This document shows, one piece after another, positions 5,007 to 56,927 of a stretch of 56,927 nucleotides of DNA. Both the position numbers and the translations under genes were made by a program. The notes below the pieces were generated by a model. It made no database searches and was not told the origin of the DNA. It worked only from the letters and a program-made list of their open reading frames with translations. Within the stretch, counting starts at the first letter, position 1, and each line of letters begins with the position of its first letter. The DNA comes from Alicyclobacillus sp. (GTDB lineage: Bacteria; Bacillota; Bacilli; Alicyclobacillales; Alicyclobacillaceae). Location of the stretch: positions 1-56,927 of the forward strand of contig NZ_JAIMAV010000011.1 of assembly GCF_023511815.1 (NCBI RefSeq). Direction: 5' to 3'.

Positions 5007-6950
5007 ATGCGCACATACACGGTCCGATTGAAGGACGGTTCGGAGCGGGCGTACGAAGCAGGAACATCGTTCGCCGAGATCGCCGCGTCCATCAGCCAGG
5101 GACTGGCGCGGGAGGCGGTCGCGGCCAAGGTGAACGGCCGCGTGCTGGATCTGTCGCGTACGCTGGAGTCGGATGCGGACGTGGAGATTTTGACCCTCAA
5201 GGACCCGGAGGGCGTGGATGTGATGCGGCACACCTGCGCGCACGTGATGGCGCAGGCGGTGGCGCGGGTGTTTCCAGGGACCAAGTTCGCCATCGGTCCG
5301 GTGATTGAAAACGGTTTTTACTACGATTTCGCCGATCACACCTTCACCCCCGAGGACCTGCCCGTCATCGAGGAGGAGATGCGCCGCATCATCCGTGAGG
5401 ACCTGCCCATCATCCGCGAGGTGCTGACGCGCGAAGAGGCGTTGGCGCTGTTCTCGGAGCGCGGGGATCGGTTCAAGGTGGAGATCATTCACGATCTGCC
5501 GGAGTCGGAGATCATCACGGTGTACCGGCAGGGCGAGTTCGTCGATCTGTGCCGCGGGCCGCATCTGCCGTCGACGGGTCGCATCAAGGTGTTCAAACTG
5601 ATGTCCATCGCGGGGGCGTACTGGCGTGGCGACGCCTCGCGCGAGCAACTGACGCGCATCTACGCCGTGGCCTTCGCCAAGCAGGCGGAGCTCGACGAGC
5701 ATCTGCGGCGGTTGGAGGAGGCCAAGGCGCGGGATCACCGGCGGCTCGGGAAAGAGTTGGGGATCTTCATGCTCTCCAAGGATGTCGGTCAGGGCTTGCC
5801 GTTGTGGCTGCCCAACGGGGCCAAGGTGCGCCGGGTCATTGAACGGTACATCGTCGATCTCGAAGAGCGCCTGGGGTACCACCACGTGTACACACCTCAT
5901 CTGGCGAACGTGGAGCTGTACAAGATCTCGGGGCACTGGGAGCACTACAAGGACGACATGTATCCGCCGATGCAGATGGACAACGAGGAACTCGTCCTGC
6001 GCCCGATGAACTGCCCGCACCACATGATGATCTACAAATCGGAGCTGCGCAGCTATCGGGATCTGCCTCTTCGCGTGGCGGAGCTCGGGATGATGCATCG
6101 CTACGAGATGTCCGGAGCCTTGGCGGGATTGCAACGGGTTCGCGCGATGACGCTCAATGACGCGCACATCTTCTGCCGGCCGGATCAGATTCAGGAGGAG
6201 TTCAGCCGGGTCGTGCAGCTGATCCAGCGGGTGTACCGGGACTTCGGGATCACCGAGTACTACCACCGCCTGTCTTACCGGGATCCCGCGGACAAGGAGA
6301 AATATGTGCAGAACGACGAGATGTGGAACCGCGCCGAGACGATGCTCCGCCAGGCGATGGATGAGCTGGGGCTCGACTACGTGATCGCCACCGGCGAAGC
6401 CGCGTTCTACGGGCCGAAGCTCGATGTCCAGGTGCGCACGGCGCTTGGCAAGGACGAGACGCTCTCGACCGTGCAGCTCGACTTCCATCTCCCGAACCGG
6501 TTCGAGCTGGAATACATCGGGGAGGATGGCAAGCCGCATCGGCCGGTGGTGATCCACCGCGGCGTGGTGGGGACCATGGAGCGGTTCGTGGCGTTCCTGT
6601 TGGAACAGTACAAGGGCGCCTTCCCGGCCTGGCTGGCGCCGGTGCAGGCGCGGATCGCGACGGTCAACGAGGCGTACGAACCCTACGCGAACGAGGTGGC
6701 GGAGGTGTTGCGCAACGCCGGGTTCCGCGTCGAGGTCGACGCGCGGCCGGAGAAGATCGGCTACAAGATTCGCGAGGCCCAGGTCCACAAGATCCCGTAC
6801 ACCCTGGTGGTGGGGGAGAAGGAGGCGGCCTCTCGGGCGGTGAGCGTCCGCCGCTACGGCCAGGGCGACCTCGGCCAGATGTCACTGGAGGCGTTCACCG
6901 GCCGGCTCCGGGACGAGGTGGATCACAAGCGGCTGTTGGTGGAGGCCTGA
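5007..6950 (+). CDS. thrS: Threonyl-tRNA synthetase
   Basis: 647-residue class II synthetase charging tRNA-Thr. Domain order is complete: TGS domain (1-60), the editing/SAD domain with [11 protein letters not shown] and [17 protein letters not shown], then the catalytic core with RPMNCPHHM (zinc Cys near residue 336), the [19 protein letters not shown] motif 2 region, [13 protein letters not shown] motif 3, and an anticodon-binding C-terminus ([23 protein letters not shown]). ATG 5007 is preferred: GAGGAG lies 8 nt upstream, whereas the in-frame GTG at 4998 overlaps that site. Length fits the family. Expression should respond to threonine tRNA charging through the upstream T-box. Confidence 0.97.
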
Positions 6951-51069: not shown

Positions 51070-51948
51070 CTACCGAATAACAGCCCATGCCAGGTGGACA
51101 TTTTCATTGGCGTGGTACACGGGTGCACGATCCTGGAAATATCGCTCCTGGATGACCGCGGGGCTCAAATCTTCAACCAGGTCAAATCCTAACCTCCGAA
51201 GTTCCGCATTGAGAAGCGCTGGGTCGAAGGTCGTCTGCATGGATTCCCCCATCTTTTGCAATTCCCTGCGGATCTCACGAAGATTCGCATCCGCCTCCGT
51301 ATGATAATCAAAAATCACTGAACTCCCCGCGGGAGCCATTTGGCTGATGGAGTGGAACGTTTCATACACCTCATAAGGAGAGAGATACATGGTGACCCCC
51401 AGTAAACTGAAGAGACTCTTCGTTCTGGGGTTGTACGGCGTTCTCGCGAGTGCCTCCGCAACACGTTCCTGTCTGAAATCCGTGGACACAAAATGAAGAC
51501 CCGCAGGAAGGTCCCAGCCCAAATCCGTCAGCCGTTCGCGCTTGAATGCCTGGGTGGCGGGGTGATCGACCTCAAATACCTCAAGTTTTCCTTCCTTGAG
51601 AAGGTGTTGATGGCGAAATGCAAAGGTGTCCAACCCGGCTCCGAGAATGACGTATTGCTTCACGCCGTTTTGGATCTCTATCTCCAACCTTTCCTCTGTA
51701 TATCGCGCTCGACTGACGACGTTCGGGAGTCCCATGGTTTGCAGCAAACTGGATAAACTGGCGCCGGCATCCCCATCATGAGCCTGCAGGGCACTTTTCA
51801 GGCCCTGTTCTATCTGATGGCGTCTCTCTTCCGGTATCAGCGCATATGCAAGAGCGTCATGGAAGATGACGGGATCCTCGTTCGTCGAGTGGTAAGCACG
51901 CAGGAAGGCGGTCATGATGGCCGTCACACTGATTTGATATGCCTTCAA
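51070..51948 (-). CDS. SAM-dependent methyltransferase, LCM/PPM-type
   Basis: 292 residues of the leucine-carboxyl-methyltransferase-like class I methyltransferase family. The SAM site is QYVILGAGLDTFAFRHQH; EVFEVDHPATQAFKRERL and FVSTDFRQE follow, and SLFSLLGVTMYLSPYEVYET is the third conserved block. TTG 51948, after AAGGGGGAA, gives the family length; the open frame beyond it reaches the promoter leader. Visibly more AT-rich than the neighbours, suggesting recent acquisition. Such proteins often modify secondary metabolites or small acids; substrate unknown. Confidence 0.87.
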   Translation of the reverse strand: MKAYQISVTAIMTAFLRAYHSTNEDPVIFHDALAYALIPEERRHQIEQGLKSALQAHDGDAGASLSSLLQTMGLPNVVSRARYTEERLEIEIQNGVKQYVILGAGLDTFAFRHQHLLKEGKLEVFEVDHPATQAFKRERLTDLGWDLPAGLHFVSTDFRQERVAEALARTPYNPRTKSLFSLLGVTMYLSPYEVYETFHSISQMAPAGSSVIFDYHTEADANLREIRRELQKMGESMQTTFDPALLNAELRRLGFDLVEDLSPAVIQERYFQDRAPVYHANENVHLAWAVIR

Positions 51949-52041
51949 CTGAATATTCCCCCTTGGACCGGATCCCAGCCGTGTGGCGGGATAGTACATT
52001 CAGTGAAAGTATATCAAAAGCCAGGATGAGATAGAAATATA

Positions 52042-53191: not shown

Positions 53192-54481
53192 TCATTCCGG
53201 CGCCTCGACGACCGGCAACACGTTGTGCACCGCCTCGACCTGCGGCAGCGCGCGCAGGCCCTGAACGACGTGGGACAGCGGTCCCGGGGCCGTCTCGTGC
53301 GTGACGATCACGATGTCCGCCGCATTGCCGCGGCCGCGTTTTTGCAGCACCGTCTCCATGCTGACATTGTCGACGCCGAAGATGCTGGCGATGGCCGCGA
53401 ACACGCCCGGCTTATCCGCCGCCGTCAGGCGCAGGTAGTAGCGGGCGGGCGCGAGATCCAGCGGATCGACGCGCTTGTTCGGCAGATACATCCGCGAGAC
53501 GCGGCCGGACACGCCGAGGCGGATGACGCGCAGCACCTCGATGACATCCCCCAGCACGGAGCTGGCGGTCGGCAGGGAACCCGCGCCGCGACCGAAGAAC
53601 ATCAGGTCGCCGGCGGCGTCCCCGTGCACGAACAGGGCGTTGAAGGGCCCCGAGACGTGCGCGAGAGGATGCCGCTTGCTGACCAGCGCCGGCCGCACGT
53701 GCAGGGAGAGCACGCCCTCCCGGTCGCTGCCGGTCGCGAGGAGTTTGATCACGCAGCCGAGCTCGTCGGCAAAGCGCACGTCCTCCGCGGAGATGGACCG
53801 AATGCCCGCCACCCGCACGTCGTCGAGGGTCACGCGGGCGTGGAAGGCGATGGACGCCAGGATGGCGAGCTTTCGGGCGGCGTCCAGGCCGTCGACGTCG
53901 CTGGACGGATCCGCCTCGGCGTAGCCCAGGCGCTGCGCATCGGCCAGCGCGTCGGCGAAGTCGGCGCCGGTGTCGGTCATCTGGGTCAGGATGTAGTTGG
54001 TGGTGCCGTTGATGATGCCGAGCAGGGAGCTGATCTCGTTGGCCGTCATCTGCTCGGTCAAGGGCCGGATGAGGGGGATGGCGCCGCCGACGGCCGCCTC
54101 GTAGAACACGTCCACCCCGTGCCGTTCCGCCGCATCCAGGATCTCCGCGCCGTGCACGGCGATCAGGTCCTTGTTGGCGGTCACGACATGCTTTCCGGCG
54201 GCGATGGCCTGCAGGATGTAGGTTCGCGCCGGTTCAATCCCGCCGATGGTTTCAATCACAATGCGAATCGACGGGTCGTTGAGCACGTCGTCCGGGTTGT
54301 CCGTGAGGATGCCGGTGGGCAGGTCCACATCGCGCGGCTTGTCCACCCGCCGGACGAGGATCCGCTTGATCACCGGCCGCAGCCCCGTCATGTCGGCGAT
54401 CTTCCCCTGCCGCCGGTTCATCAGCTCGACGACGCCGGAACCGACGGTTCCGCACCCGAGCAGTCCGATTTCGACAATCAT
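53192..54481 (-). CDS. hom: Homoserine dehydrogenase
   Basis: 429 residues. NAD(P) site IGLLGCGTVGSGVVELM, catalytic domain with VTANKDLIAVHG, GGAIPLIRPL, GIINGTTNYILTQM and SDVDGLDAARKL, and a C-terminal ACT domain (about 345-425; LRLTAADKPGVFAAIASIFG). Reduces aspartate semialdehyde to homoserine. ATG 54481 overlaps the thrB stop as ATGA. Last gene of a thrC-thrB-hom order. Confidence 0.97.
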   Translation of the reverse strand: MIVEIGLLGCGTVGSGVVELMNRRQGKIADMTGLRPVIKRILVRRVDKPRDVDLPTGILTDNPDDVLNDPSIRIVIETIGGIEPARTYILQAIAAGKHVVTANKDLIAVHGAEILDAAERHGVDVFYEAAVGGAIPLIRPLTEQMTANEISSLLGIINGTTNYILTQMTDTGADFADALADAQRLGYAEADPSSDVDGLDAARKLAILASIAFHARVTLDDVRVAGIRSISAEDVRFADELGCVIKLLATGSDREGVLSLHVRPALVSKRHPLAHVSGPFNALFVHGDAAGDLMFFGRGAGSLPTASSVLGDVIEVLRVIRLGVSGRVSRMYLPNKRVDPLDLAPARYYLRLTAADKPGVFAAIASIFGVDNVSMETVLQKRGRGNAADIVIVTHETAPGPLSHVVQGLRALPQVEAVHNVLPVVEAPE

Positions 54482-55554
54482 CTCGACACCCCTTTCCCCG
54501 CCGCGCCCGCGGCGTCCGGGTCGATGGCCGGGTCCTTGGGGACCCTCTCCACCCGGGTCTCCGCGCGCCGCGGCTGCAGCACATACGCGTAGCATTCAAT
54601 GTTGAATTCTCGCCAGGCGAGGGTCATCTCGTCCGCTACCTGCGACGCCGACCCTTCGTCGGTACACCACGCCAGCAGCGTCGGCCCGGCGCCGCTGAGG
54701 GTGGTTGTGATGGCGCCCGCTCGGATGGCGGCCTGCCGCACCGCGTCGCAACCGGGGATCAGGCGGCGGCGGTACGGTTCATGCAGGCGGTCGCCGAATC
54801 CGCCCTTGAGCAGATCGAGCTGCCCGGTGGAGAGCGCCAGGGTCAGCCGCGCGGCCTGCGCGGTGTTCCAGACCGCGTCCTCGCGCGGGACGGAGGCGGG
54901 CAACACCCGTCTGGCGTCCTCCGTCCGCAGCGGGAAGTTCGGCACCGCCGCGACGAAGACCAACTCGTGCGGCAAGGGCAGGGCGAAGGACCTCGACTGG
55001 CGCTCGTCGGGCACGCTGAGCCACGCCCCGCCGAGCAGGGCCGGGGTGACGTTGTCCGGGTGGCCCTCCATGGCGACGGCGAGATCGAGCAGTTGTTGAC
55101 GGGACCACCTCAACTCCGGGGCGTAGTGGGCGATCAGCGCGTTGCCGAGCAGGAGCCCCCCGACGATGGCCGATGCGCTGGAGCCGAGGCCGGCCGCCAC
55201 CGGAATGCCGTTGAACAGGCGGAGCCGAAAGGACCGCGGGACGTTTGCGCCCGGCGTCTCATCCAGCAGGCGGTCGATGGCTTGCACCACGGCATTCGTT
55301 CGATCCCGCGGCAGCAGCGCCGCCCCCTCCCCTTCCACCTCCACCGAGAATACGGGGCCGGGTTCCAGCTCCATCTCGTTGCACAGCGCCAGCGCCAGGC
55401 CCATGCAGTCGAACCCAGGGCCGAGGTTGGCCGACGTGGCGGGCACGCGCACGCGGAATCGCGGCGGACCGGGGGGCGTTGGGGCCTCCCGCTCGACGGT
55501 CTCCGGCTGGTCCGGCAGGCGCGTGTCCAGCGGCATGGGGGCGTTCATAGCCAT
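54478..55554 (-). CDS. thrB: Homoserine kinase
   Basis: 358-residue GHMP kinase. VRVPATSANLGPGFDCMG, the ATP loop GIPVAAGLGSSASAIVGGLL and the C-terminal TTTLSGAGPTLLAW are conserved. Both ends are extended: about 30 Pro-rich residues before the first motif and about 25 after the kinase fold, compared with ~305 residues in Bacillus. ATG 55554 or 55548; both overlap or abut the thrC stop at 55545. Its stop overlaps hom. Confidence 0.93.
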   Translation of the reverse strand: MAMNAPMPLDTRLPDQPETVEREAPTPPGPPRFRVRVPATSANLGPGFDCMGLALALCNEMELEPGPVFSVEVEGEGAALLPRDRTNAVVQAIDRLLDETPGANVPRSFRLRLFNGIPVAAGLGSSASAIVGGLLLGNALIAHYAPELRWSRQQLLDLAVAMEGHPDNVTPALLGGAWLSVPDERQSRSFALPLPHELVFVAAVPNFPLRTEDARRVLPASVPREDAVWNTAQAARLTLALSTGQLDLLKGGFGDRLHEPYRRRLIPGCDAVRQAAIRAGAITTTLSGAGPTLLAWCTDEGSASQVADEMTLAWREFNIECYAYVLQPRRAETRVERVPKDPAIDPDAAGAAGKGVSR

Positions 55555-56183
55555 CGCTCCAGGGTGTCCTGGACCGCCGCCGCGCTGGCCTCGGTGACGG
55601 TGGGGGTGCGGTCGCTGTGCGCGATGGCGTTGTCCGGGTCCTTGAGGCCGTTGCCGGTCAACACACACACCACGGTTTCACCGGGGCGGATCACGCCCTG
55701 CTCGTGCAGCTGCAGCAGACCCGCGACGGACGCCGCGGAGGCGGGCTCGGCGAACACCCCTTCGCGGGCGATCCAGCGGTAGGCGTTCCGAATCTCGTCA
55801 TCGGTGACCGCGCGGACGCCGCCGCCCGACTCCTCCACCGCCCGCGTCGCCAGGTGCCAGGACGCGGGGCGCCCGATGCGGATGGCGGTCGCAAACGTCT
55901 CGGGGTGATTAATCGGCCGGCCGCGGACCAGGGCCGCGGCGCCCTCGGCCTCGAACCCCTGCATGCGCGGGCGGTTGTCGACCATCCCCGCCGCGTGGTA
56001 GGCGCAAAATCCCTTCCAATAAGCGCTGATGTTTCCGGCGTTCCCCACCGGGATGCACAGGTGATCCGGCGCCCGGCCGAGGGCGTCGCAGATCTCGAAC
56101 GCGGCGGTCTGCTGCCCCTCCAACCGGAAGGGATTGACCGAGTTGACCACCGTGATGGGCAGGCGTTCGGCTACCTCGCGCAC
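55545..56183 (-). pseudogene. thrC: Threonine synthase, C-terminal part only
   Basis: About 212 residues matching the C-terminal 60% of ThrC: REVAERLPITVVNSVNPFRL, PVGNAGNISAYWKGF, AEGAAALVRGRPINHPET and a C-terminal DRTPTVTEASAAAVQDTLER. The N-terminal ~145 residues, including the PLP-lysine motif (SFKDRG in family members), are absent. The frame continues upstream without a stop into ribonucleotide reductase sequence. As it stands the product cannot be a threonine synthase. Upstream of thrB with a 10-nt overlap, so the intact allele should be the first gene of the thr operon. Confidence 0.85.
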
Positions 56184-56927
56184 GAAAGGGGAAACCTCCA
56201 CTAGCGTCTCGTCGCCGAGGACATGGCGTCGGCGATAGGCCAGTGCGAAAAGCGGCTCGATGCTGTGGGTCGTTCCCGCAATGATGCTTATCGTCCCCGT
56301 CGGCGCGATAGCCGTTGTGGTTGCATGCCTGCGCGGGAGGTTGTGGCGGCCGAAGACGCTTCTTGCCCATTCCGGGAACGATCCCCTCGCCAACGCCAGT
56401 TCGTAGGAAGCCCGATTAGCCGCACGTGCAATGCGACGCATCAACCGGTCGGCAAACTGGACCGCCATGTCCGAGTCGTAGGGTATGCCGAGTCGAACGA
56501 GCACCTCGGCAAAACCCATCACTCCCAGACCGATCTTGCGGGTAGCCCGCGCCGCGCGTTCGAACGGTTCTCCTGGATAGCGGTTCACTTCGAGAATGTC
56601 GTCCAAGAAGCGCACTGCTAGCGCCACCACGCGATCCAGCCTCTCCCAATCCAGTCTAACTTCTGCACCGGAGCCCAGCAGCATGCGCGCGAGGTTTATC
56701 GAGCCGAGATTGCAGGATTCGAATGGAAGGAGCGGCGTCTCTCCGCACGGGTTCGTGGCCTCGATCGCACCGAGGTGCGGTACCGGATTGTCGCGATTGA
56801 TAGTGTCCAGGAAAACCAGTCCAGGATCGCCGCTCTCCCAAGCGGCTGCGGCAATAGCCCTGAACACCTCTCGTGCGTTGCGCCGGCCACATACCTTGCC
56901 CGTACGCGGGTCAGTCAACTCGTATTC
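56184..56927 (-). CDS. nrdJ: Class II ribonucleotide reductase fragment (runs off right edge)
   Basis: About 248 residues of the catalytic barrel of a B12-dependent ribonucleotide reductase, open to the right edge. The thiyl-radical motif ATNPCGETPLL, PFESCNLGSINLARML and APTGTISIIAGTTHSIEPLF are intact. The match ends near EPLFALAYRRRHVLGDETLV, after which thrC sequence begins. The DNA here is noticeably less GC-rich than the thr genes to its left, and it lacks the C-terminal half of NrdJ. Probably belongs to a different locus or genome. Confidence 0.82.

Follow-up and report, generated by a model that had tools for sequence, protein, structure and literature searches.

An open NrdJ–ThrC reading frame at the end of an Alicyclobacillus contig is very probably a chimeric tip and not a fusion gene

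The window analysed here is the whole of contig C13 (56,927 nt) from a draft Alicyclobacillus genome of 165 contigs (3.01 Mb, 99.3% complete). At its end lies an open minus-strand reading frame of 460 amino acids (positions 56927 to 55545), which starts at the contig edge and joins parts of two enzymes. Residues 1 to 257 belong to the class II ribonucleotide reductase NrdJ (NCBIfam NF006417, E 1.7e-103; TIGR02504, E 6.2e-86) but span just positions 220 to 472 of the 759 in the NF006417 model, and the Pfam barrel domain Ribonuc_red_lgC was matched in two stretches, the better one at residues 15 to 191. The threonine synthase model TIGR00260 was matched at residues 253 to 432 (model positions 144 to 340 of 340, E 3.3e-46; its 158 bits are below the curated cut-off of 167.1), and Pfam PALP at residues 245 to 425 (about positions 113 to 295 of 295). 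DNA alignment to two congeners placed the first thrC base at 56185, and neither a stop nor a frameshift was found at the joint, which lies 742 nt from the contig end. A previous sequence-only reading had described an uninterrupted passage from NrdJ to ThrC near 56165 to 56186, a ThrC without its PLP-lysine domain and an NrdJ without its C terminus. This description held on all three points: the motif NPTGSFKDRG (GSFKDRG is, we assume, the PLP-lysine motif of threonine synthase) is absent from the window frame, and NrdJ is cut within its barrel domain.

All features around the joint are on the minus strand. The NrdJ tail (56186..56927, 742 nt) is most likely a foreign, internal piece of a B12-dependent ribonucleotide reductase gene, cut both by the contig end and by the joint, and no congener alignment extends past 56185. 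The C-terminal half of thrC (55545..56185) is host sequence with 85 to 86% protein identity to the two congeners, and its first 265 nt are 87 to 88% identical to them at the DNA level. It begins with the joint octamer TCGTGCGC (56178..56185). The host flank continues with a thrB-like longest ORF (54478..55668, true start probably further in) and a hom-like longest ORF (53192..54595), which from their sequences we take to encode homoserine kinase and homoserine dehydrogenase, respectively; both are collinear with the congener G001. Further into the contig, positions 51070 to 51999 have a lower GC content (0.46 to 0.57) and carry a leucine carboxyl methyltransferase-family gene (PF04072); this stretch falls within a block that aligns to G001.

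The missing half of thrC was found on another contig. A search of the genome with PF00291 gave eight places, one of which, C131:761-1126, covers profile positions 2 to 123 and complements the part on C13. The frame on C131 encodes ThrC with NPTGSFKDRG and, further on, FDEALAIVR, beyond which it continues, with no stop, as histidine kinase sequence, so that the break in thrC falls at the same place as on C13. The two halves overlap by 8 nt only, namely the octamer given above. Both congeners, G001 and G002, carry one intact, full-length, collinear thrC that spans the two contigs: their loci (80 to 83% identical to C131 plus C13) align to C131 from position 6792 (G001) or 8008 (G002), where the congener stretches compared begin, as far as 773, and the alignment continues on C13 from 56185. 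C131 and C13 thus represent two halves of one ancestral locus. Neither C131:1-772 nor C13:56186-56927 aligned to the congener thrC locus. When the tails were compared with 1.2 Mb of G001 by tblastx, that of C13 gave no match (E<=1e-6), and the six matches listed for that of C131 (36 to 58% identical) were to bases 181 to 438, the regulator part. The host genome gave no other close ThrC at E<=0.001, the 460-residue frame matching C13 and C85 only. In the living host thrC is most likely intact, and it would there, as in the congeners, bridge C131 and the thrB and hom genes of C13.

The tail of C131 (C131:1-772, in frame with the N-terminal half of thrC) encodes the C terminus of a histidine kinase, whose HATPase domain begins at profile position 22, and a response regulator, whose receiver-domain match stops at position 82 of 111; a further piece occupies roughly the outermost 177 bases of the contig. 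Taken alone, these last ~177 nt (1-177) gave weak matches, the best outside itself at E 0.013, and no match to plasmids. Across six loci that carry related kinases, the regulator was matched every time and the end piece never, and the 15 plasmid matches listed for the regulator frame all end by residue 85 of 143. The C131 tail therefore appears to hold two joints, thrC/kinase and regulator/end piece, of which the second could be less sharp, since the regulator frame, end piece included, is covered to at least 80% in 10 of 1153 plasmid records, at identities below 60%.

We compared the sequences on either side of the two thrC joints. The kinase relatives carry QEALANVRKHAQA or a similar, QEALANVR-like phrase at the joint, in register with ThrC. 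The 24 thrC nucleotides up to the joint matched the kinase DNA at 19 of 24 positions in two of six relatives, and in four of the six the in-register joint was their best place along 1.2 kb of the kinase gene. All six have Asn where the chimera has the Ile of ThrC. Since the Ile codon is that of thrC and the exact match is thereby limited to about 7 nt, a misjoin through a shared 21-mer appears less likely on the kinase side. The sequence-only reading had suggested that NrdJ and ThrC both carry a phrase like FVREVAER here, which could act as microhomology. This was not borne out: among 94 NrdJ loci reaching the joint (90 distinct sequences), REVAER occurred in none and EVA in 10, and NrdJ DNA near the joint was identical to thrC at 10 to 14 of 24 positions, compared with 13 to 16 at the best places elsewhere in the gene (12 loci, representing 11 distinct genes). 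Judging from these alignments, local similarity can explain the thrC/kinase joint, while the NrdJ joint showed no raised similarity in the 12 loci. An open frame across the thrC/kinase joint follows naturally from the in-register similarity, and open frames across either joint are no evidence of function.

A working bifunctional NrdJ-ThrC enzyme, already thought unlikely in the sequence-only reading, has practically no chance of being the explanation. The frame is indeed open across the joint, but the catalytic parts of both partners are incomplete, ThrC being without its GSFKDRG half and NrdJ without its C-terminal part, and the host has an NrdJ of its own on C85. Furthermore, the same fusion in independent genomes, which that reading had named as evidence against a chimera, was not found. 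In 20 relatives and in the host genome outside the window, ThrC-side matches stayed within residues 215 to 460 and NrdJ-side matches within residues 4 to 259. Among 80 loci listed, of 585 relatives, from a scan of genome contigs, no match covered both parts; the longest (residues 2 to 304, 44% identity in the best segment) was to an NrdJ gene. A literature search over the opening parts of abstracts gave no apparent report of a threonine synthase/ribonucleotide reductase fusion.

When the halves were searched separately, the ThrC half led to the congeners (85 to 86%) and the NrdJ half to bacterium HR10 and its phylum (64 to 66%). None of the genomes searched was the donor of the NrdJ tail: matches were found in 7 of 396 genomes of the HR10 phylum (E<=1e-80, best 66%), 114 of 397 other genomes of the host phylum (E<=1e-70, best 61%) and 6 of 350 of the phylum of bacterium HR29 (E<=1e-84, best 61%). 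Nor was a donor of the kinase found in the HR29 phylum (6 of 350 genomes at E<=1e-16, 48 to 59% identity) or the host phylum (7 of 397 others at E<=1e-12, best 46%). The six kinase-bearing genomes of the HR29 phylum differ from its six NrdJ-bearing ones. Across HR10 and nine other NrdJ-bearing genomes, the kinase was matched in 8 of 10 (E<=1e-5, best 41%), with no match in HR10. No phage record covered at least 80% of the 460-residue frame, and no plasmid record at least 80% of either tail as DNA.

Within the host genome, residues 92 to 259 of the NrdJ part share 36% identity with the NrdJ encoded on C85, and no other piece of the tail nrdJ was found, PF02867 matching on C85 and C13 only. The C85 protein has 1477 residues from its first start codon, the NrdJ frames of the two congeners 1089 and 1136; it contains an insertion with a LAGLIDADG match and with intein-splicing and Hint matches just below their cut-offs, which is probably an intein.

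The drop in base composition on the NrdJ side that had been pointed out earlier is real (GC from about 0.72 to 0.61-0.63). As proof of foreign tails we rejected it, as tail GC falls within the range of 63 contig ends of the host genome (0.40 to 0.81 in 250-nt steps). With 0.688, the NrdJ part has a lower GC3 than any of the 46 host ORFs sampled (minimum 0.701), a set pre-filtered by GC3>GC1>GC2, which favours high GC3. Codon usage was considered as a sign of two donors. NrdJ differed from kinase plus regulator (8 of 2000 shuffles), but the test does not discriminate, because host genes also differ among themselves (hom_1 versus leuC_1, 0 of 2000; thrC versus leuC, 1 of 2000). The low GC3 would agree with an nrdJ that entered the threonine operon by horizontal transfer and then decayed, a reading we nevertheless consider very improbable: the joint has neither stop nor frameshift, the genome yielded no further piece of this nrdJ, and the matching break on C131 would be left unexplained.

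We examined contig ends across the assembly. Of the 330 ends, 83 (63 + 20) were compared with 1.2 Mb of G001. Alignments over at least 1 kb were obtained for 25 of them, and in 18 of these 25 the alignment stops no more than 15 nt short of the tip; long tails are therefore not the rule. The seven others have unaligned stretches of 54 nt (C67 end), 131 nt (C134 start), 580 nt (C80 start), 742 nt (C13 end), 772 nt (C131 start), 782 nt (C67 start) and 943 nt (C82 start). By eye, the C80 tip looks like diverged host upstream sequence and the C82 tip (GC 0.50) like accessory DNA, and neither was taken as a chimera; the C134 start and the C67 end, being short, were left out of the count. The C13 end, C131 start and C67 start were judged to be chimeric tips. 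In the last of these (C67:1-782), a DnaB helicase piece (profile positions 56 to 191 of 255) is followed by an antisense piece with weak TPR matches, which runs into a methyltransferase-like host gene that is cut on C67 and whole in G001. By tblastx, the C67 tail matched nothing within the 1.2 Mb of G001 compared, and its pieces may be the host's own. The three chimeric tails are similar in length (742, 772 and 782 nt).

Exact overlaps of 77 nt were observed between the tips of C1 (end) and C78 (start), C8 (end) and C10 (start), and C83 (start) and C85 (end), and one of 66 nt between C6 (end) and C97 (start); some further tip matches were inexact. These overlaps suggest graph neighbours left unjoined, and those of 77 nt, we presume, come from k=77 in a de Bruijn assembly. 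With only 8 nt in common, the two parts of thrC are not graph neighbours of that kind, and a simple k-mer misjoin leaves the 8-nt overlap unexplained, as 66 or 77 nt are shared between genuine neighbours.

Two joints at one position also resemble a target-site duplication, and a real foreign insertion in thrC has to be weighed, with an 8-nt direct repeat at its ends, an interior left unassembled and threonine synthase lost. Such an insertion explains why both joints lie at the same thrC position better than a chimera does, and it fits with most mappable contig ends having no long tail and with the genome having no second close ThrC. Against this, the boundaries of the insert would fall within a kinase gene and within nrdJ, the C131 tail contains a further joint, and the same pattern is found elsewhere, on C67. 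No inverted repeats were visible by eye at the starts of the tails, the interior of any insert being unassembled, and no integrase or transposase was among the domains found in the 742 + 772 nt. We therefore give a real insertion an outside chance. A mobile element, suggested by the 8-nt overlap, was set aside as improbable, as no inverted repeats or recombinase were seen in the assembled part and further joints lie within the tails. A mosaic insertion, with gene fragments of other bacteria at the 8-nt thrC site and a second site on C67, is highly unlikely; if true, it would mean a threonine-requiring strain.

We conclude that the NrdJ-ThrC frame is, with high probability, a chimeric contig end and not a fusion gene, in line with the assembly chimera that the sequence-only reading had favoured as the simplest account. 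Chimeric tips most likely explain the split of thrC, tails that are absent from the intact congener loci, the similar tail lengths and the recurrence on C67. Several points count against this conclusion. Independent errors would seldom place both thrC joints within 8 nt of each other, an overlap that a simple k-mer misjoin does not explain. The NrdJ joint has no raised DNA similarity (12 loci), and no donor genome was found. The regulator/end-piece joint may be less sharp than it seems, and the pieces of the C67 tail may be the host's own. The NrdJ-ThrC molecule would accordingly not exist in the cell, and the tails would derive from other genomes. During library amplification or assembly of a mixed DNA sample, both thrC ends at one spot may have been extended with misplaced fragments, NrdJ on C13 and kinase, regulator and end piece on C131, through faulty extension or, as a guess, template switching; short local similarity may have aided at least the kinase join. 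The NrdJ-ThrC frame should stay out of databases as a fusion protein, and the split thrC should not count as evidence of lost threonine synthesis in the species. Contig tips of about 740 to 780 nt made of misplaced pieces, with frames open through the joints, are a warning sign for this assembly; with 25 of 330 ends mapped, other contigs may bear similar tips.

Compared with known proteins, residues 1 to 257 of the frame match both NrdJ models strongly, but a full NrdJ differs in that the window holds the internal model stretch alone, the rest not being found in the genome. The C-terminal half resembles ThrC of TIGR00260 (86% protein identity to G001), while a separate contig carries the N-terminal half and its lysine motif. 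The closest parallel is the chimeric or misassembled contig end of draft genomes, a fault of the type sought by genome-chimerism tools such as GUNC (PMC8201837). Such ends share with the present case a tip of unrelated origin that is joined to host sequence at a locus intact in relatives. The present case differs in that one gene is broken at a single position by two tips, and in that more than one piece makes up two of the three tails found.
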